Shown here piece after piece: positions 1,236 through 52,057 of a stretch of DNA of 60,641 bases. Position numbers and translations under genes: made by a program. The stretch spans positions 1 to 60,641 of the forward strand of contig WSXZ01000057.1 in assembly GCA_009773555.1 (NCBI GenBank), in the 5' to 3' direction. The notes below the pieces were generated by a model, which was not told the DNA's origin, did not search any database, and saw only the letters and a list, made by a program, of their open reading frames with translations. Numbering within the stretch: the first letter of the stretch is position 1; every line of letters begins with the position of its first letter. Source of the DNA: Methylocystaceae bacterium (GTDB lineage: Bacteria > Pseudomonadota > Alphaproteobacteria > Rhizobiales > Beijerinckiaceae).

Positions 1236-1997
1236 ATGACCGACGATTTTCTTGTTAAGCGGCGGTCTGACAGCGAGGTCCGCCAAATTGCAAAAAGGGC
1301 GCGAGCCTATCTTGGCTTTGCTAAAGGGGGACGAGTCGACATCGTCGCGTGTTTGCGGAAAGAGACGATTTGGACTGTCAGTGGCGTAAAGCGACTAATG
1401 GTCAAAGTGCTTCCGGATATTGAATTGGGAACCGCAGACGCTCTGACGTCTCATACGGAAGAGTTGATCCTTATTGCCTTCAAGCAGTCGGTATATCGTG
1501 CCGCGGTTCTTGGTGAAGGTCGCGCCAGAAATACTGTCGCGCACGAACTCGGCCACGCAGTGATACATAATCGTTCCATGATGCCACGTCGCGCAGGAGG
1601 GAATGATAAGTATAGATGGATTAGACCATATGAGTCGGCTGAGCATCAAGCAAATGTTTTCGCGGCGGCCCTTTTAATCGATGACGACGGCGCAAAAAGT
1701 CTCGATTCTGCCGAAGAAGTGTCGATTCAGTTCGGAGTAAGTCTTAAGTGCGCAGAAATATACTATAAAGAAATATTGGAGCGGCGCGACCGAGGTAGAG
1801 CTGCAGAGAAGATGCGCAAGCTTGCCTCATCGTTTAGCGCTGAGGTGAAGCACCCCCATGCTCACGACTTAAGGTTCCTGGCCTCTCCTTGTCCTAAATG
1901 TGGAGAGAGGAAGGTGTTCCCAGTAGGATCGAAGTATATGTGCCATCACTGTGATACTGTGTCAGACACCTTTCCGGACGGCGATTATAGCGACTGA
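1236..1997 (+). CDS. ImmA/IrrE-type zinc metallopeptidase with C-terminal zinc ribbon
   Basis: The 253-residue product has the zincin motif HELGH (His103, Glu104, His107) in VAHELGHAVIHN, followed by EHQANVFAAALL, where Glu136 is the likely third ligand. This is the ImmA/IrrE (COG2856) layout. Members usually cleave a phage or stress repressor, often an XRE-type partner. The C-terminus adds a CPKC...CHHC zinc ribbon (Cys219, 222, 236, 239), which is less usual. The GGGGG before ATG 1236 can act as ribosome binding site. No XRE or other DNA-binding partner is adjacent. The gene is visibly richer in A/T than its neighbours, which suggests acquisition. A role in phage defence or repressor cleavage is inference. 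Confidence 0.75.
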   Translation: MTDDFLVKRRSDSEVRQIAKRARAYLGFAKGGRVDIVACLRKETIWTVSGVKRLMVKVLPDIELGTADALTSHTEELILIAFKQSVYRAAVLGEGRARNTVAHELGHAVIHNRSMMPRRAGGNDKYRWIRPYESAEHQANVFAAALLIDDDGAKSLDSAEEVSIQFGVSLKCAEIYYKEILERRDRGRAAEKMRKLASSFSAEVKHPHAHDLRFLASPCPKCGERKVFPVGSKYMCHHCDTVSDTFPDGDYSD

Positions 1998-2370: not shown

Positions 2371-5300
2371 ATGAAAATTGAGCGGCGCTACACCAAGGCG
2401 GGCGAATCCCCCTATGCGAACATTCCGTTCCGCACGACAAAGAGCGAGATCCGCAATCCCGACGGCTCGATTGTCTTTTCCCTCGACAACATCGACGTCC
2501 CCAACCAGTGGAGCCAGGTCGCGGCCGACGTTCTGGCGCAGAAATATTTCCGCAAGGCCGGCGTGCCGGCGCGCTTGAAGCGCGTCGAGGAGAATTCCGT
2601 CCCGTCCTTCCTGTGGCGCTCCGTCGCCGATACGGAAGCGCTCAGCGAACTCCCCAAGGACCAGCGCAACGGCTCCGAAATCTCGGCCAAGCAGGTCTTC
2701 GACCGTCTCGCCGGCGCCTGGACATATTGGGGTTGGAAGGGCGGCTATTTCGACGCCGAGGAAGACGCCCAGGCGTTCAGCGACGAGCTTCGCTACATGC
2801 TCGCCATGCAGATGGCGGCGCCCAATTCGCCGCAATGGTTCAACACCGGCCTGCATTGGGCTTACGGCGTCGACGGGCCGAGCCAGGGGCATTTCTACGT
2901 CGACTACGCCAATGGCAAGATGGTGAAGTCGAAATCGGCCTATGAGCATCCGCAGCCGCACGCCTGCTTCATTCAGTCGATCGCCGACGATCTCGTCAAC
3001 GACGGCGGCATCATGGATCTGTGGGTGCGCGAGGCGCGGCTGTTCAAATACGGCTCCGGCACCGGCACCAATTTCTCCAAGCTGCGGGGCGAGAAGGAGA
3101 AGCTTTCCGGCGGCGGTTCGTCCTCGGGCCTGATGTCCTTCCTCAAGATCGGCGACCGCGCGGCGGGCGCGATCAAATCCGGCGGCACGACGCGGCGCGC
3201 GGCGAAAATGGTCGTCGTCGACATCGATCATCCCGACGTCGAAGCCTTCATCGATTGGAAGGTGAAGGAGGAGGAGAAAGTCGCTTCACTCGTCACCGGC
3301 TCGAAGATCGTCAAGAAGCATCTGAAGGCGATCATGCGCGCCTGCATGAATTGCGAAGGGCCCGGCGACGACTGTTTCAACCCCGAGATCAATCCGGCGC
3401 TGAAGCGCGAGATCAAGCTCGCACGCAAGAACGACGTGCCGGACAATTACATCAAGCGCGTCATTCAGTTCGCCAAGCAGGGCTACAAGGACATTCACTT
3501 CGACACCTATGACACGGACTGGGACAGCGAAGCCTATCTCACCGTCTCGGGTCAGAACTCCAACAACTCCGTGCGCGTCACGGACGCGTTCCTGCAGGCG
3601 GTCGAGAAGGACGACGACTGGTCCCTCATCAAGCGCCTCGACGGCAAGACGGCGAAGACGCTGAAAGCCCGCGATCTGTGGGAGAAGATCGGCTACGCCG
3701 CCTGGGCGTCCGCGGATCCGGGAATCCAGTTCCACACGACGATCAACGACTGGCACACCTGCCCGGCGGGCGGCCCCATTCGCGCGTCCAATCCGTGCTC
3801 GGAATATATGTTCCTCGACGACACGGCGTGTAACCTTGCGTCTCTAAACCTGCTTCAGTTCCGCGATCTCGAGACCAAGCGCATCGACGTCGAGTCTTAC
3901 GAGCACGCCGTGCGGCTGTGGACGGTGGTGCTCGAAATCTCGGTGCTGATGGCGCAGTTTCCCTCAAAGGAAATCGCGCAGCTCTCCTACGACTACCGCA
4001 CGCTGGGCCTCGGCTTCGCCAATGTCGGCGGCCTGTTGATGTCGTCTGGCGTCGCCTATGACAGCGACGCCGGCCGCGCCATCGCCGGCGCGCTGTCGGC
4101 GATCATGACGGGCGTGTGCTACGCGACCTCCGCCGAAATGGCCAAGGAGCGCGGCCCCTTCGCGCGCTTCATGGAGAATCGCGAAGCGATGCTGCGGGTC
4201 ATCCGCAATCATCGCCGCGCCGCGCATGGCGAACGCGTCGGCTATGAGCAGCTCGCGATCGCGCCCGTGCCGCTCGACGTCGCGTCCTGCCCCGATCAGC
4301 TCTTGGTCGAGCGCGCCGGCGCCGCCTGGGACAAGGCGCTCGCGCAAGGCGAACTCTACGGCTATCGCAATGCGCAAGTCACCGTCGTCGCGCCGACCGG
4401 CACCATCGGCCTCGTGATGGATTGCGACACGACCGGCATCGAGCCCGATTTCGCGCTCGTCAAATTCAAGAAGCTCGCCGGCGGCGGCTATCTCAAGATC
4501 GTCAACCGCGCCGTGCCGGAAGGGCTGCGCTCGCTCGGCTATCGAGAGAGCGACATCGCCGAGATCGAGGCCTATGCCGTCGGCCACGCCTCGCTCTCCA
4601 ACGCGCCGGCGATCAACACCACGAGCCTGCGGGCGAAGGGTTTCACGGACGAGAAGATCGCGGCGGTGGAAGGAGCGCTGCGCAGCGCCTTCGACATCAA
4701 ATTCGTCTTCAACAAATGGACGCTCGGGCAGGACTTTCTCACCGGCGTGTTGAAAGTCCCAGCGGCCGCGCTCGACGACAAGAACTTCGATCTGCTGACG
4801 CATCTGGGGTTCTCGCGCGCCGACATCGACGCCGCGAATGTCCATATCTGCGGCGCGATGACTCTGGAAGGCGCGCCGCATTTGAAGCGCGAGCATTATC
4901 CGGTGTTCGACTGCGCCAATCCCTGCGGGCGCACCGGCAAGCGCTATCTCCTGGTCGACTCGCATATCCGCATGATGGCGGCGGCGCAGCCCTTCATCTC
5001 GGGCGCGATCAGCAAGACCATCAATATGCCCAATGACGCGTCGATCGAGGATTGCGAACAGGCCTATCTGCTGTCGTGGCGCCTCGGGCTCAAGGCCAAT
5101 GCGCTCTATCGCGACGGCTCCAAGCTCTCGCAGCCGCTCTCGGCGCAGCTCATCGCCGGCGACGACGACATCGACGCGATGGACGTCGTCGAGGAACTCG
5201 TCACCGCCAACATGCCGGCGCGCGCGGCGGCCATCGCCGAACGCATCGTCGAGCGCGTCGTGCATCAGGTGATCCGCGAGCGCGAGAAGCTGCCGAACCG

Positions 5301-6018
5301 GCGCAAGAGCTACATTCAGAAGGCGACGGTCGGCGGCCACAAGGTCTATCTGCACACGGGGGAATATGAAGACGGGCGCTTAGGCGAAATCTTCATCGAC
5401 ATGCACAAGGAAGGCGCGGCCTTCCGAAGCCTGATGAATAATTTCGCCATCGCGATTTCGCTCGGCCTGCAATATGGCGTGCCGCTCGAGGAATATGTCG
5501 ACGCCTTCACCTTCACCCGCTTCGAGCCGGCGGGTCCGGTGCAGGGCAATGACGCGATCAAATACGCGACCTCGATCCTCGACTATGTGTTCCGCGAGCT
5601 CGCCGTCTCCTATCTCGGCCGCAACGATCTCGCGCATGTCTCGCCCGAAGACGTCGGCCATGACGTGCTCGGCAAGGGCCAGCATGAGGGCAAGGCGCCG
5701 GAGACGAATTCGGTCGTCTCGCGCGGTCTGCTGCGCTCCAAGACCGACAGGCTGATGGTGGTGCAGGGCGGGGCGGTCGCTTTACGCGAGACGCCGGACG
5801 CGGCGCATGAGGCGGACGATCCGACCTCGACGCTCGGCTGGACCGAGCCGACGAAGACGGTAACCGGCGTCGCCGAAAAACGCGCCGAAGCGCGCATGAA
5901 AGGCTATGTCGGCGAACGGCACGTGTCTGAAGTGCGAGACGTGTGGGGCGACGACGGGGTGTTCGTGAGGCGCGGAGGGCTTTGCCCTCCGCGAGCATCA
6001 AAAATTATTGAATCGTAA
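2371..6018 (+). CDS. nrdJ: Class II (B12-dependent) ribonucleoside-diphosphate reductase, C-terminal tail frameshifted
   Basis: The 1215-residue product matches the long adenosylcobalamin-dependent NrdJ of alphaproteobacteria, which reduces ribonucleotides to deoxyribonucleotides without oxygen dependence. The barrel motifs [44 protein letters not shown] and [21 protein letters not shown] are intact. The family normally ends in a Cys-rich tail that re-reduces the active site. Here the reading frame leaves homology after KGYVGE (about 5916). The tail, [17 protein letters not shown], is instead encoded one frame over at 5915-5965, with its stop at 5966-5968. About 12 residues that should join the two parts are absent, so roughly 38 bases appear deleted. 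The ORF as it stands runs 50 bases past the native stop, through a hairpin. Confidence 0.95.
5971..5993 (+). terminator. Terminator-like hairpin just after the native nrdJ stop
   Basis: CGCGGAGGGC, TTT and GCCCTCCGCG form a perfect 10-bp stem with a 3-base loop, starting 2 bases after the native nrdJ stop at 5966-5968. The following bases are A-rich rather than T-rich, so termination strength is uncertain. In the current frame the hairpin is translated as part of the NrdJ extension, which supports the frameshift reading. Confidence 0.5.
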
Positions 6019-6027
6019 GGTGCTTTA

Positions 6028-6660
6028 ATGGACAGCGCGCTTAGCGGCGGGAGCGTCGCGCTCTATCTATTTTTTCTACTACTGCCGGGGCTCCTGGGAT
6101 CATTCATCTATGATTATTTCCTTGAAGGGGAGCCAAGAGAAAATTCAGATAAAATTACAACAGCACTCATTCTGACATTATTAAGCTCAATCATCATGCA
6201 CTATGCGGCCCACACGCCAATCCTACCAAATATAGAGATTACAACGGGAACAAGGGTAGATTCTATCATTAATGCGTTTATCGCAAAAAACTTACTCTAT
6301 ACGTCTGCATTGTCTTCAATGATAGCGTTCGTTTTTGCCATAATAAATAATCATGGTCTCATTTACTCCTTGATGCGACGGCTCGGCCTTTCGATGAAGG
6401 CGCCTGCGAACGATGTTTGGCAAAAGATGCTTTACGCAAACCAAGGTTTTTGGATTGCGATCAGCTTTCGCGACGGTCGTCGCCTGACCGGATGGCCCGA
6501 GATGTTCTCATCCATGGGCAGGCCCCGAGAGATTTTCCTCGCGGAGGCCACGTGGTATGATTTGAACGAAGCCGGAGAAGTGATTACTTCAGATATCGAG
6601 GGGCCGGGCGTCTACTTGTCCAACTTTGACGACGTAGTCGCGATTGAGATTCTTCGGTAA
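6028..6660 (+). CDS. DUF6338-like membrane protein
   Basis: The 210-residue protein has three hydrophobic segments: about residues 10-28, 46-62 and 92-112. A soluble C-terminal domain follows, starting near DVWQKMLYANQGFWIAI and ending GVYLSNFDDVVAIEILR. The arrangement and the beta-strand-rich tail fit the uncharacterised DUF6338 family. The AAGG before ATG 6028 is a fair ribosome binding site. The gene is much richer in A/T than nrdJ or plsC and begins just after the nrdJ terminator, which suggests insertion there. The small gene at 6667 follows by 6 bases and is probably co-transcribed. The function is unknown. Confidence 0.65.
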   Translation: MDSALSGGSVALYLFFLLLPGLLGSFIYDYFLEGEPRENSDKITTALILTLLSSIIMHYAAHTPILPNIEITTGTRVDSIINAFIAKNLLYTSALSSMIAFVFAIINNHGLIYSLMRRLGLSMKAPANDVWQKMLYANQGFWIAISFRDGRRLTGWPEMFSSMGRPREIFLAEATWYDLNEAGEVITSDIEGPGVYLSNFDDVVAIEILR

Positions 6661-6666
6661 GATCGG

Positions 6667-6894
6667 ATGCACCCCATGTCCACGAACTTTAAGAAAAGCG
6701 GCGATGCACGGGCCTCGAGAAGTTCCACTTCCTCGGGGGTCGAGGGTCGCGGGGTACGTCCTCTAACTCCTAAGCCAGTGCCTAGCGGTTTTGACCTTTG
6801 GGTTAGGCGTGATGCTTCGTCCGGTCGCTTCATAGACGTCGGGCGAGAGCGAGCGCCTTTTAAGGGCGTCGCTAAAGAAACTCCAAAAAAATAG
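6667..6894 (+). CDS. Small basic conserved-looking protein downstream of the DUF6338 gene
   Basis: This is a 75-residue basic protein; an internal ATG at 6676 is an alternative start. The C-terminal half reads SGFDLWVRRDASSGRFIDV, then PFKGVAKE, which resembles a short conserved tail seen in small hypothetical proteins. The N-terminal half is Ser/Arg-rich and probably disordered. It lies 6 bases after the DUF6338 gene on the same strand, so the two probably form a unit. No function can be assigned. Confidence 0.5.
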   Translation: MHPMSTNFKKSGDARASRSSTSSGVEGRGVRPLTPKPVPSGFDLWVRRDASSGRFIDVGRERAPFKGVAKETPKK

Positions 6895-6968
6895 GGATTG
6901 CTGCTTCCCGAATACGGTCTTCTCGCAGTCCGCGCACCTCACACGCTCCTAATGACGGTCAGGACTGC

Positions 6969-7751
6969 TTATTGCCGCTGCAACTGGCGCGCATCTCTGT
7001 CAGCCCCATCAACCGAGGCGAGCGACTCGCACACACGCGCGCGCGTCTCCGCCGCGAGCGTCTTGCGATTCTTGCCGGTCGTCTCGATCGCGTCGCCGAA
7101 AGCGATGTGGCAAAGCGTGCGGCCGCGCTTCATCAGGCGCCACAGATGCGGCAGGAAGCTCATGTCGCCATACCAGCCGACATCGATCCTGCGCACGCCA
7201 TCGGCGTAAGAGATCGCGACAGGCGCGAGCGTCGGCGCTTCGCCGCGCGCGGCCATCGCCTCCAGCGGCGCGAAATGCGCCGAGCGAAACGGCAGAACTA
7301 CCGCGCCGTCGCTCGATGTGCCTTCGGGAAAGACGACGAGATCGCCGCCCGCGCGCAATACGTCAGCGAGTGAATCGTTGACGCGCGAAATATCCTGCCT
7401 CGCGCCGCGTTCGACGAAGATCGTGCCTTGCAGCCGCGCGAGCAATCCGAGCACAGGCCAGCTGGCGACTTCGCTCTTCGCCAGGAAGACGAAGGGATAA
7501 AGGCTCGCGAGCGCGATGATGTCGGTCCATGACACATGGTTGGCGACGACAAAGCGCGGCGTCTTCGAGGGCAGGGCGCCGCGCGCGTCGACCTTTATGC
7601 CAATGACGGCGCAGACCGCGCGGCAGAAGCGCGTCTGGATCGCGTGCTGAATCGGCCAGCCGCGCCGGCGCGCCAGCGCCTGTAGCGGAACGAGAAAGAT
7701 GAAAGCGCCCGCCAGCGTGAGGACGAAGGCGAGCGCGCGCAGATAGGCCAT
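6969..7751 (-). CDS. plsC: 1-acyl-sn-glycerol-3-phosphate acyltransferase (PlsC/OlsA family)
   Basis: The 260-residue protein has an N-terminal membrane segment (about residues 5-25) and the LPLAT signature. It carries NHVSWTD (His72...Asp77, the HX4D catalytic pair), FVERG for glycerol-phosphate binding and FPEGTSSDG. It transfers an acyl chain to lysophosphatidic acid, or to lyso-ornithine lipid if it is OlsA, at the inner membrane. The truncated OlsB-like gene at the window start makes an OlsA role possible, but sequence alone cannot separate PlsC from OlsA. It is the last minus-strand gene before the AT-rich pair that ends at 6894. Confidence 0.85.
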   Translation of the reverse strand: MAYLRALAFVLTLAGAFIFLVPLQALARRRGWPIQHAIQTRFCRAVCAVIGIKVDARGALPSKTPRFVVANHVSWTDIIALASLYPFVFLAKSEVASWPVLGLLARLQGTIFVERGARQDISRVNDSLADVLRAGGDLVVFPEGTSSDGAVVLPFRSAHFAPLEAMAARGEAPTLAPVAISYADGVRRIDVGWYGDMSFLPHLWRLMKRGRTLCHIAFGDAIETTGKNRKTLAAETRARVCESLASVDGADRDARQLQRQ

Positions 7752-17079: not shown

Positions 17080-17556
17080 CTACTCGATCACGAGGAGAGG
17101 TTCGCCGCCGGATTTGGTGGCGACGATGTCGTTGAAGGTCTTCATCGCTTCGATCAGCAAGAGCTTGTCGCCGAGCGAAACGCGCGCGCCGATCTCGACG
17201 AAGGGCTTTGCGTCGGGGTTCGGCCGAAGATAGGCGGTGCCAACCATGGGCGACTTCACCGCGTCCAGGTATTCGGGGGGCTCCGTGACAGGAGCCGGGG
17301 ATGTGACCGGCTTTGCCGTTGGCGGCGGCAGGGGCTGGACCGACGGCGCGACGACGCTCGCAATTGCTGCGGCAGGCGTGCGCGCCGCGCGGATACGCAG
17401 ATCGCCCTTCTCCACCTCAAATTCGGTCAAATTGCAGTTTGCGACGAGCTCCGCAATCGTGCGCAGCAGATCCGCGTCGATGACGGGCGCGGGCGCGGAG
17501 ACCGACGCCGGTTTGCGGGAGGAAGCGGTTCGAGGCGGTTGAGCTTTGCGCGCCAT
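17080..17556 (-). CDS. accB: Biotin carboxyl carrier protein, biotinyl domain apparently shortened
   Basis: This 158-residue protein carries the biotin attachment motif EAMKT (Lys139) in a C-terminal domain that begins AVKSPMVGTAYLRPNPDAKPFVEIG. AccB is the carrier that shuttles carboxyl between AccC and AccDA. Family members have about 35 residues after the biotinyl Lys, including an ILVEDGxPVEFG strand pair. Here only 19 remain: TFNDIVATKSGGEPLLVIE. The text jumps from KSG directly to GEPLLVIE, so about 16 residues (48 bases) are missing in frame. This would remove two strands of the biotinyl barrel from a normally essential protein. The N-terminal region and Pro/Ala linker look normal. Confidence 0.9.
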   Translation of the reverse strand: MARKAQPPRTASSRKPASVSAPAPVIDADLLRTIAELVANCNLTEFEVEKGDLRIRAARTPAAAIASVVAPSVQPLPPPTAKPVTSPAPVTEPPEYLDAVKSPMVGTAYLRPNPDAKPFVEIGARVSLGDKLLLIEAMKTFNDIVATKSGGEPLLVIE

Positions 17557-27745: not shown

Positions 27746-28741
27746 GCGCGCCGCTGCTGTCGGTTAAAAGCGTCAGCAAAAAGTTCGGCGCGGTCGTTGC
27801 GCTCGAGGACGTGTCGCTCGACGTGGGGGCCGGCGAATTCTTCGCGCTGCTTGGACCGTCGGGCTGCGGCAAAACCACGCTGATGCGCTGTATCGCGGGT
27901 TTCGAGTCGCCCGACGCCGGAACGATCGCACTGAATGGCGACGATCTTTCCGGCGTGCCGCCCTATCGGCGACCGGTGAATATGATGTTCCAGTCCTATG
28001 CGCTGTTTCCGCATCTCAACGTGTTCGAGAACATCGCCTTCGGACTGCGCCGGCAGGGTGGGACGAGAGACGCCGTCGACGCGCGCGTCAACGAATTGCT
28101 CGCGATGACGCAGCTTTCGGCTTTTGGCCCTCGGCGAATCGCCGAGCTGTCAGGCGGACAGAAGCAGCGCGTCGCGCTGGCGCGGGCGCTCGCGCCGCGT
28201 CCGAAAATGCTGCTGCTCGACGAGCCGCTCGGCGCGCTCGATCGCAAGCTGTTTTCTGATCGTCACGCATGACCAGGACGAAGCGCTGGCGCTCGCCGAT
28301 CGCATCGCAGTGATGCGGGCGGGCAGGGTGGAGCAAATCGCCGGGCCGATGGAGATTTACGACCGGCCGGCGACGCGTTTCGTCGCCGGCTTCGTCGGCG
28401 AAACGAATTTCATCGAGGGACGCTTGCACCGCAATGGCGCTGCGGCGCTGATCACTGAGTTTGGACGAATCCCCTGCGAGCCCGGAAATCTTCCGGACGG
28501 CGCGCAGGCGACGCTCAGCGTGCGCCCCGAGCGCATCGGCGTTGCGCGCGACGGCGAGGGGATCGCGGGCGTCGTTGAGAACTTCGTCTTTCGCGGCGAA
28601 ACGACGCTGCTGCGGGTGCGCGTCGCCAGCAACATCGTTCTGCGGGCGGCGGCAAGCCACGGCGAACGCCACGCAATTGGCGACTCCGTGAGGCTCAGCT
28701 TCCCGCCTGGCGCCGGCGCGCTTCTCGCGGAGGAGAGATAG
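27742..28741 (+). pseudogene. Polyamine-type ABC transporter ATPase, frameshifted with internal deletion
   Basis: The first frame (27742-28272) has Walker A GPSGCGKTTLMR, LSGGQKQRVALARAL, Walker B MLLLDEP and LGALDRKL. The family continues with about 19 residues up to FLIVTHDQ. Here KL is followed almost at once by FLIVTHDQDEALALADRIAVM in another frame (from 28253), which runs through a TOBE-like C-terminal domain to 28741. So about 55-60 bases are missing and the frame is broken between the D-loop and the H-loop. Together the two halves make a PotA/PotG-type ATPase that would power the two permeases downstream. As written, the product ends at 28272 and cannot work. Start is GTG 27742. Confidence 0.85.
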
Positions 28742-38741: not shown

Positions 38742-39875
38742 TTATTCGGCGTTCGCTGGTTCGTCCGCCGCTTGCCAGTCAAAGGTGACGACCCGGCCGT
38801 TTTCCACTGAAAGCGCGAGGCGACCGCTCTTCAACTCCAACGCCTTGTCGCCGAAGATCGCCCGGCGCCAACCCTTCAGCGCCTGAACGTCGGCATGATC
38901 GTCATGTGCGACGGCTTCGAGGTCTTCGACCGTCGCGATCATCTTGGCGGCGACGCCCGTCACCGTCGCGCCGTTTGAGTTGCGTCGGTCGCGTTCGATG
39001 CGGGGCACCGTGGCGGGATCGCGCGCAAGGCCGCGCTCGACAGCGGCGATGATGTCGGTTCCCGCGCGGGAGCGCTCCATGCCCTTTGGAAACGACCGCA
39101 AATTGCCGAGAGCTTCGACAGAGCGCGGCGCGGCTTGAGCAATCTCGAGGAGCACGTCATCCTTCAGGACGCGCGAACGCGGCACGTCGCGCGATTGCGC
39201 TTCGAACTCGCGCCAGGCGGCCAGCTCCATCAGAACGGCGAGATCGCGCGGCTTGCGGGCGCGATGGCGCAGCCGTTCCCAGGCGTTTTCGGGATGCTGC
39301 TCATAGGTCGAGGGCGAGGTAAGCGTCTGCATCTCGTCCACAAGCCAGTCGAGTCGATTGGAGCGTTCGAGCCGCGCCCGCAAGGCGGTGTATATGTCGC
39401 GAAGATGGGTGACGTCGGCGATGGCGTATTCGATCTGGGCGTTTGACAGCGGCCGGCGCGACCAGTCGGTGAATCGCGACGATTTGTCGAGACTGGCGCG
39501 CGTGATCGCCTTCACCAGCTCGAGATAGGACGCTTGTTCGCCGAATCCGCAGACCATGGCCGCGACCTGCGTATCAAAGATCGGCGCAGGGATGAGTCGG
39601 GCGAGGCGCCAGATGATCTCGAGGTCCTGGCGGGCGGCATGAAACACCTTGACGACGTCGGGATTGGCCATGAGGCCAAAAAACGGCGAAAGATCAAGGT
39701 CATCGGCAAGGGCGTCGATCGCCACAGCCTCTTCCGGCGACGCCAGCTGAATCACGCAGACCTGCGGCCAGAACGTGGTTTCGCGCAAAAATTCGGTGTC
39801 GACCGTGACGAAGGGATGCTGAGCGAAACGGTCGCAGACCGCCGTCAGTTCGGGATTGGTGGTAAGAAGACTCAT
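38742..39875 (-). CDS. rnd: Ribonuclease D
   Basis: The product has 377 residues from ATG 39875; the longer ORF adds 96 unlikely residues. DEDD exonuclease motifs are present: [32 protein letters not shown] and [21 protein letters not shown]. The HRDC domain follows ([40 protein letters not shown]). It trims the 3' ends of tRNA precursors. In this group it normally follows ppk-ppx; here it is on the opposite strand with two extra genes in between. Confidence 0.95.
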
Positions 39876-50503: not shown

Positions 50504-51341
50504 TCACGCCGCCTGCGAGGGATCGTCCCAATAGCCCTCGGAACGGGCGATCCTCGCGTATTCAGCATGCACCAGCGCAGGGGTGTAGAGCCGCTCCAGT
50601 CGGCGCACGACGAAATGGCCGCGCGCGAGGCTCTGGAAGTGTTCGGTGAACGCGACATTGATCGCCGCGCCGCTGATCGCGCCGATGATCGGGACAGCCT
50701 GCGCCGCGGTCTTTTGCGACACGACCATGCCGAAGCGCGCGGCAACCGCGCCGATCAGACGCGCCAAAGCGGGCGCCGCGTCGCTGGAGATCTGACGGAC
50801 AGTCATAAAACGGGCGGCGTCGGACACGGATTTCGCGAGAAGCGCGCGGAGCGCGAGATAGCCGCCTTCCAGAATATTGTCCCCGGCGGAAGGGCCGCCC
50901 AGCGCAAAAACTTCGAGGCAGGCGAGGGCGGCGCCCGGGTGGCGCAGGTCCTCTCCCTCGGCCTGCGCAATTTCCGCGATCGAGCGCAGGATGATCGTCG
51001 TCGACACCGGCAATTCGATCGGCAGGCTCGCGAGGCCCACGGCGCCGCCGACGCCTCCCGACAGGGCCGCGAGACGACGGTGAATGCGTATGGTGTCCTT
51101 CGCCGGCTGCGCGTCGAGGCTCGCCAAGGCTATCTTCATCGCCGCGGCGAGCGCCTTTTGCGTCGCCGAGGCGACCGTCGCCTGCAGTCGCCAATCCGGC
51201 AAGCCGCGTCGCAAAACTCTGTCTTTCCAGCGCCGCGACGGCGGCGCGTAGCGCTTCGACGTCGGACTGGGAAAGGCCCTGGTCCACGAGAACGGGAAGC
51301 GGATAGGAGTTCGCCACGGGATCCTCGGTTCTTGAGATCAT
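50504..51341 (-). pseudogene. EcsC-family protein, frameshifted with a short deletion
   Basis: The N-terminal frame starts at ATG 51341 and reads LVDQGLSQSDVEALRAAVAALERQSFATRLAGLA. It then leaves family sequence near 51185. The C-terminal frame picks up at LQATVASATQKALAAAMKIALASL and runs through GGVGGAVGLASLPIELPVSTTIILRSIAEIAQAEGEDL to the stop at 50504. Between the two the family has about 20 further residues, so some tens of bases are missing and the frame is broken. EcsC proteins are membrane-associated and their role is poorly known. The intact C-terminal ORF could be made from an internal start but would lack the N-terminal helix. Confidence 0.75.
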
Positions 51342-51547: not shown

Positions 51548-52057
51548 ATGCGGAAATTTGGATTGGGTCGCGCGCTGAGCGGCGTTTTCGCTCTGGCCCT
51601 GCTGGCGCCGGCGAGCGCCTTCGCGGGCGACCGCATCGGCTCCTTGCAGTGCCGGCTGCTCGGCAATGGCATCAGCGTTTTGGTCGAAAATCAGCAGATC
51701 GATTGTATTTATCGCGATGACGCCGAAGGCGGTGTTCCTGCTCATTATGTCGGCGCGCTCACCAAGGTCGGCGCCAATGTGACGATCAACGGTCCTGGCG
51801 AGCTCGCATGGGGCGTCGTCTCCGCCACGAGTCACATCGGACCGGGCGCGCTCGCGGGCGCCTATTATGGCCCTGGCTTCTCAGCCAAAGTTTTGGTTGG
51901 CGGCGGCGGCGCGGCGCTCGTCGGCGGATCCAACTCCGGCGTCGGTTGGACGGCTGGCGTCGAGCGCTTGACGCTCGCTTACGTCCCGCCGCCGGCGCCC
52001 ATGCTGCGCCGCCATCACCTCCACCATCATCACCATTATCACCACCATCACGGCTAA
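51548..52057 (+). CDS. DUF992-type secreted protein with His-rich tail
   Basis: The 169-residue protein starts after a very good AAAAAAGGAGA site. A signal peptide ends at AFA-GDRIG. The domain reads GSLQCRLLGNGISVLVENQQIDCIYR, HYVGALTKVGANVTINGPGELAWGVVSATSHIGPGALAGAYYG and GGAALVGGSNSGVGW, matching DUF992. The last 14 residues are mostly His (HHLHHHHHYHHHHG) and could bind Ni, Zn or Cu. The function is unknown; it is probably periplasmic or outer-membrane associated. Confidence 0.8.
   Translation: MRKFGLGRALSGVFALALLAPASAFAGDRIGSLQCRLLGNGISVLVENQQIDCIYRDDAEGGVPAHYVGALTKVGANVTINGPGELAWGVVSATSHIGPGALAGAYYGPGFSAKVLVGGGGAALVGGSNSGVGWTAGVERLTLAYVPPPAPMLRRHHLHHHHHYHHHHG

Follow-up and report, generated by a model that had tools for sequence, protein, structure and literature searches.

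Does the organism behind this sequence make a ribonucleotide reductase without its cysteine-rich tail, or was the tail broken while the genome sequence was being made? The question arises at nrdJ on the window, by which we mean the whole stretch of DNA analyzed here (contig C53, 60,641 bp), part of an assembly of 3,999,444 bp in 144 contigs that is 99% complete with 0.88% contamination. The nrdJ open reading frame runs from 2371 to 6018 and encodes 1215 amino acids. Its body (2371-5914, plus strand) is intact and conserved, and the family frame holds up to the residues KGYVGE. The product scores 2226.4 bits against the NCBIfam model NF005736 (cut-off 1737), with protein residues 1-1183 matched, and it carries the Pfam domains Ribonuc_red_2_N (PF08471), Ribonuc_red_lgC (PF02867) and TSCPD (PF12637); family score, barrel and N-terminal class II domain thus all place it among the class II, B12-dependent NrdJ enzymes. 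When the body is compared with that of the relative G018, the differences at codon positions 1, 2 and 3 number 4, 4 and 87, respectively, which points to strong conservation.

Directly behind the body, the alignment to four relatives (G018, G005, G016 and G006) reveals a junction (5913-5916, plus strand) at which exactly 38 bp of the relatives' DNA are missing, the gap being placed at 5913/5914 with 3 bp of shared sequence against G018. The first-pass annotation had proposed a deletion of about 38 bp and the absence of about 12 residues, and both are borne out, the lost residues being present in relatives as ACPECANFTLVR. It had also placed the remaining tail end one frame over, and on re-reading the coordinates are right: the end of the Cys-rich tail, encoding four of the six tail cysteines, and the original stop lie in the +1 frame at 5915-5968 on the plus strand, starting with AAC GGC ACG and ending with TCG TGA. 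The displaced 17-residue peptide recurs unchanged at 14 of the 29 same-genus loci and its DNA differs from the best matches (three loci) at one base in 54, so that this is not a chance match. The frame as written runs on through 33 out-of-frame residues with a single cysteine (5917-6018, plus strand), which correspond to none of the nrdJ tails read in relatives. These residues gave weak matches in five genomes (query residues about 1170-1203, 66-74% identity), all located at the 3' end of the relatives' nrdJ genes or immediately downstream, and the simplest explanation for such matches is tail DNA held in common and translated in the wrong frame. A stem of 10 bp with a 3-base loop (5971-5993, plus strand) starts two bases beyond the former stop, as had been described earlier; the label of terminator is not supported, given that no T run follows the stem and that it was not among the hits of the terminator scan. 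The DNA downstream of nrdJ (window 5969-7000) differs between most of the relatives compared and looks like a variable spot, and a DUF6338 reading frame is located at 6028-6660 in a low-GC stretch behind the gene.

Among the tails read, the arrangement is confined to this one sequence. We searched 36 same-genus genomes and read the tails at 29 loci (L002-L030). A full six-cysteine tail ending in GCS and a stop was found at 28 of these, with the cysteine array C-x2-C ... C-x2-C-x2-C ... C-S, and at the 29th (L015) the tail is intact through CGATT and followed by another reading frame. Among 80 named loci (L031-L110), at least two of which appear to be duplicates of same-genus loci (L031 of L006 and L032 of L027), the tail was seen in 79, the remaining one (L056) ending at the end of its contig. 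The nearest named relative among the 80 is Methylocystis silviterrae FS (L031, 98% in the best protein segment), in a search that may omit very near records, and the sequence thus probably comes from a methanotroph of the genus Methylocystis. Neither the junction of the window nor its out-of-frame tail occurs in any tail read at these 29 same-genus and 80 named loci, and the comparison with relatives that the first-pass annotation had called for therefore leaves its observation standing. At L015 (G029:C132), which belongs to a 64%-complete draft, the nrdJ frame continues past CGATT into DTCMRQRTIWTVK, giving an open frame of 1424 aa. This extension resembles, by eye, an IrrE/M78-like reading frame at window positions 1236-1997 (LRKETIWTVSG), and the locus may represent either an nrdJ fusion or a join made during assembly.

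Searches of the genome found no ribonucleotide reductase apart from NrdJ: they returned no class I small subunit (PF00268), no class III enzyme (PF13597) and no large-subunit barrel (PF02867) besides nrdJ itself. A replacement for the tail was not found either: the PF12637 search of the genome gave no free-standing TSCPD domain, an exact degenerate pattern gave no second copy of the tail in the assembly, and a DNA search of the assembly with the 126-bp intact tail returned the two flanks of the window gap only. The whole-protein search of the genome likewise matched only the window gene, and with the PF12637, whole-protein and intact-tail searches in agreement a split enzyme of the NrdJa+b kind is not supported.

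Under these circumstances, a real and very recent 38-bp deletion in the nrdJ of this strain would have left an enzyme with a foreign 33-residue tail and no electron transfer via C-terminal cysteines, so that either a small reductant would act directly at the active site or the strain would be impaired. The nearest experimental guide is the NrdJ of Stackebrandtia nassauensis, for which the accessible part of the report describes a protein lacking the Cys-rich domain that is still active with DTT, as such a reading would require, but completely inactive with TCEP (Loderer et al., 2017; PMC5704485). According to the same text, all six tail cysteines are needed for TCEP-driven turnover and none of six Cys-to-Ala variants shows activity with TCEP, and a real loss of the tail should therefore be severe, all the more so in a genome with no other ribonucleotide reductase found. 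We consider such a real deletion in nrdJ unlikely, and the remainder of the genome provides further evidence in this regard.

The loss in nrdJ is one of a class of like deletions in this genome. From a genome sample of 1,000,644 bases in 57 pieces (four all-N pieces having been dropped), 292,733 bp could be aligned to stretches of G018 and/or G005, relatives whose syntenic DNA is mostly 91-97% identical to the window. The aligned DNA contains 21 deletions in the range of 24-53 bp, spread over nine contigs at about one per 14 kb, with sizes of 24, 25, 28, 28, 29, 31, 34, 34, 35, 36, 37, 38, 39, 39, 41, 45, 45, 46, 47, 52 and 53 bp. Both comparisons show thirteen of them; seven appear only with G018 as the reference and one only with G005, the direction of these last eight resting on a single relative. 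The window alone accounts for six, net losses of 38-53 bp that are all seen with G018 as well as with G005. Besides that in nrdJ, these comprise a 45-bp in-frame deletion near the end of the biotinyl region of accB, encoding the biotin carboxyl carrier protein (17107-17108, minus strand, seen against G016 as well), a frame-breaking net loss of 53 bp in the gene of an ABC transporter ATP-binding protein (28250-28255, plus strand), a 39-bp deletion in rnd, encoding ribonuclease D (38961-38962, minus strand), and, in two genes without a name, a frame-breaking 41-bp deletion (51187-51192, minus strand) and a 39-bp deletion (51934-51935, plus strand).

These deletions take no account of reading frames. 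Six of the 21 are multiples of three, about the chance level, as against 81 of 96 control indels of 3-9 bp, 12 of the 22 that measure 10-19 bp and 6 of the 9 in the 20-60 bp range, the difference from this last group having a p-value of 0.10. The small indels (3-9 bp) of this genome are multiples of three in 21 of 33 cases against G018 and in 17 of 18 against G005. Nineteen of the 21 deletions fall within reading frames whose substitutions favor third codon positions; of the other two, the first eliminates a start codon and the second is located in a reading frame with weak support. The 20 clean junctions among the 21 share 0-4 bp (mean 0.9 versus 0.75 for random, p = 0.21) and are accordingly blunt, which makes repeat collapse in a k-mer-graph assembler unlikely. 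Dropout at hairpins or at extremes of GC was also considered, and no association with either was detected in the 14 sites tested (mean folding percentile 0.55; GC 0.60 versus 0.63).

A comparison of the two relatives with each other (G005 against G018, 414,614 bp) served as control, and in the 20-60 bp range it gave 5 deletions as against 4 insertions. In this genome, measured against G018 alone with a stricter flank filter, the same size range comprises 19 deletions over 289,134 bp, together with 3 insertions. Deletions are thus in excess (p = 1.7e-4), and the asymmetry of 19:3 (p = 8.6e-4) is absent from the control (5:4, p = 1.0). The few insertions of 20-60 bp in this genome (3 against G018, 2 against G005) resemble gains of repeat units, and given the control rates a few of the 21 deletions may be real.

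For a second control, seven further relatives were compared with G018 in the neighborhood of nrdJ, with 12-19 kb of alignment per relative and about 117 kb in total. In the 20-60 bp range this yielded 3 deletions as against 6 insertions, all from four of the seven (G004, G014, G021 and G023), and 3 of each when G005 was the reference. Total gaps per kb here resemble those of this genome, and it is the direction that differs (3:6 versus 19:3, p = 0.007). With some relatives being more distant and one 30-bp insertion common to three of them, this control is less clean than the first, and its message for an artefact is mixed; G016 and G006, at about 95% identity, show no gaps of 20-60 bp in 35 kb. 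Both controls demonstrate that changes of this size do arise between relatives (5 + 4 in 415 kb; 3 + 6 in 117 kb), as a real deletion in nrdJ would need, but such a deletion leaves unexplained the twenty other like-sized losses that damage other genes in the sampled part of the genome. Outside the size class there is no excess: gaps of 58 bp or more between HSPs amount to 7 deletions and 2 insertions in the 179.5 kb of this genome aligned to G018, compared with 14 and 10 in the 415-kb control, and gaps of 1-2 bp are about as frequent as in the control (88 in 117 kb versus 279 in 409 kb). Any fault behind the deletions would therefore be oddly size-specific.

The damaged genes include accB, thiC, ribB, cbiB, tsaB and rnd, all named on the intact copies of relatives, which score above curated cut-offs. 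TsaB, the biotin carboxyl carrier protein (BCCP) and ribonucleotide reductase are essential in most bacteria. In tsaB, a 29-bp loss has split the gene into two frames (C27:4412-5012), one fragment at 4412-4693 that matches model positions 1-92 of 212 with 92.8 bits and another at 4707-5012 with 33 bits, and the search for an intact second copy gave as its sole other match a sequence on C22 below the cut-off. The accB product has lost 15 codons and scores 86.9 bits against the BCCP model, for which the cut-off is 115.2; no intact second accB was found, the other two matches being short and weak. These second-copy searches covered nrdJ, tsaB and accB. Even in-frame losses take out core motifs, as a 24-bp deletion lies inside AIIPANVNH of thiC and another in-frame deletion at VVDPIDG of a cysQ-like gene, both of which are conserved active-site motifs. 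By contrast with these genes, rpoB and rpoC are intact with no deletion, although at this rate only about 0.6 would be expected in their 8 kb.

Taken together, these sequence comparisons indicate that the 38-bp gap in nrdJ is very probably an artefact of the making of this genome sequence and that the real NrdJ is an ordinary one. This reading is based on deletions that are excessive, blind to reading frame and present in nrdJ, tsaB and accB, for none of which an intact copy was found, and it is further supported by the displaced 54-bp tail, which still encodes the family peptide, and by a junction absent from the tail read of every relative. A systematic fault would have removed pieces of 24-53 bp with blunt junctions roughly once per 14 kb, regardless of genes and reading frames, and one of these would have fallen in the tail codons of nrdJ, while the organism itself most likely has an NrdJ with the usual six-cysteine tail. 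The bases would have been lost outside the cell, during processing of the library, the reads or the assembly, and either chimeric reads or mistaken joins across short gaps in coverage would be compatible with this. An excess of like breaks, blind to frame and to the importance of genes, is what a pseudogene caused by assembly would be expected to show, and it is seen in this assembly, with the second control mixed on this point. Against an artefact stand the intact rpoB and rpoC, that mixed control, the narrow size range and the 8 of 21 deletions that depend on one relative. The earlier proposal that the protein may be inactive or may need another reductant is hence not the best explanation, as like losses occur about every 14 kb and in genes expected to be essential too, so that the first-pass annotation is confirmed in its observation and supported in part in its interpretation.

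It is very unlikely that the deletions are real as a whole, which would imply a methanotroph whose only ribonucleotide reductase lacks the cysteine tail and is reduced by another route, in a genome shaped by size-specific blunt deletion. A real burst of blunt 24-53 bp deletions throughout the strain, through a mutator or some other deletion process, would match the narrow size class, the random frames and the lack of end repeats, yet a cell with nrdJ, tsaB and accB all damaged and no intact copy found should not grow, and we give this a very slim chance. Programmed +1 frameshifting at the junction, through which the ribosome would regain the old tail still intact with its own stop and restore the last 17 residues, can practically be dismissed, as the first-pass annotation had anticipated: twelve residues and two of the six cysteines would still be absent where the tested enzyme needs all six (PMC5704485, accessible part), GGC GAA CGG CAC shows no slippery run, and relatives carry their tails in frame (in full at 28 of 29 same-genus loci and partly at the remaining one, and at 79 of 80 named loci) with this arrangement in none of the tails read.

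If the gap is indeed an artefact, frame breaks and in-frame losses of 24-53 bp, as well as missing motifs, should be discounted in this genome until the reads have been checked. Extrapolation from 21 deletions in 293 kb suggests roughly 290 such sites in 4.0 Mb, and the completeness of 99 and contamination of 0.88 give no sign of such losses. If it is not, an essential enzyme would function despite lacking a part that is considered necessary. The finding, in itself ordinary, is a warning with regard to other broken genes reported from this genome. Among the literature matches listed, those on assembly errors were general work with no description of a 24-53 bp pattern, and those on Methylocystis, ribonucleotide reductase or nrdJ included none naming Methylocystis.

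Among known systems, the relatives of the window gene resemble the NrdJd of S. nassauensis, which has six conserved C-terminal cysteines, whereas the window frame as written, on account of the 38-bp gap, does not include any of these (Loderer et al., 2017; PMC5704485, as far as its accessible text goes). The split NrdJa+b class II enzyme described there is similar to the window frame in that its catalytic chain has no Cys-rich domain of its own, but it obtains this domain from a separate nrdJb gene, for which the window genome offers neither a free-standing TSCPD domain nor a tail copy. A further parallel would be the spurious pseudogenes that assembler, platform and coverage create in general (Cooley and Wright, 2024; PMC11017572). 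In its accessible part, that study concerns frameshifts and internal stops in general and assessed no metagenome-assembled genomes, unlike the 24-53 bp deletions seen here, and the likeness would lie in otherwise conserved genes being interrupted in ways that say nothing about the organism itself.
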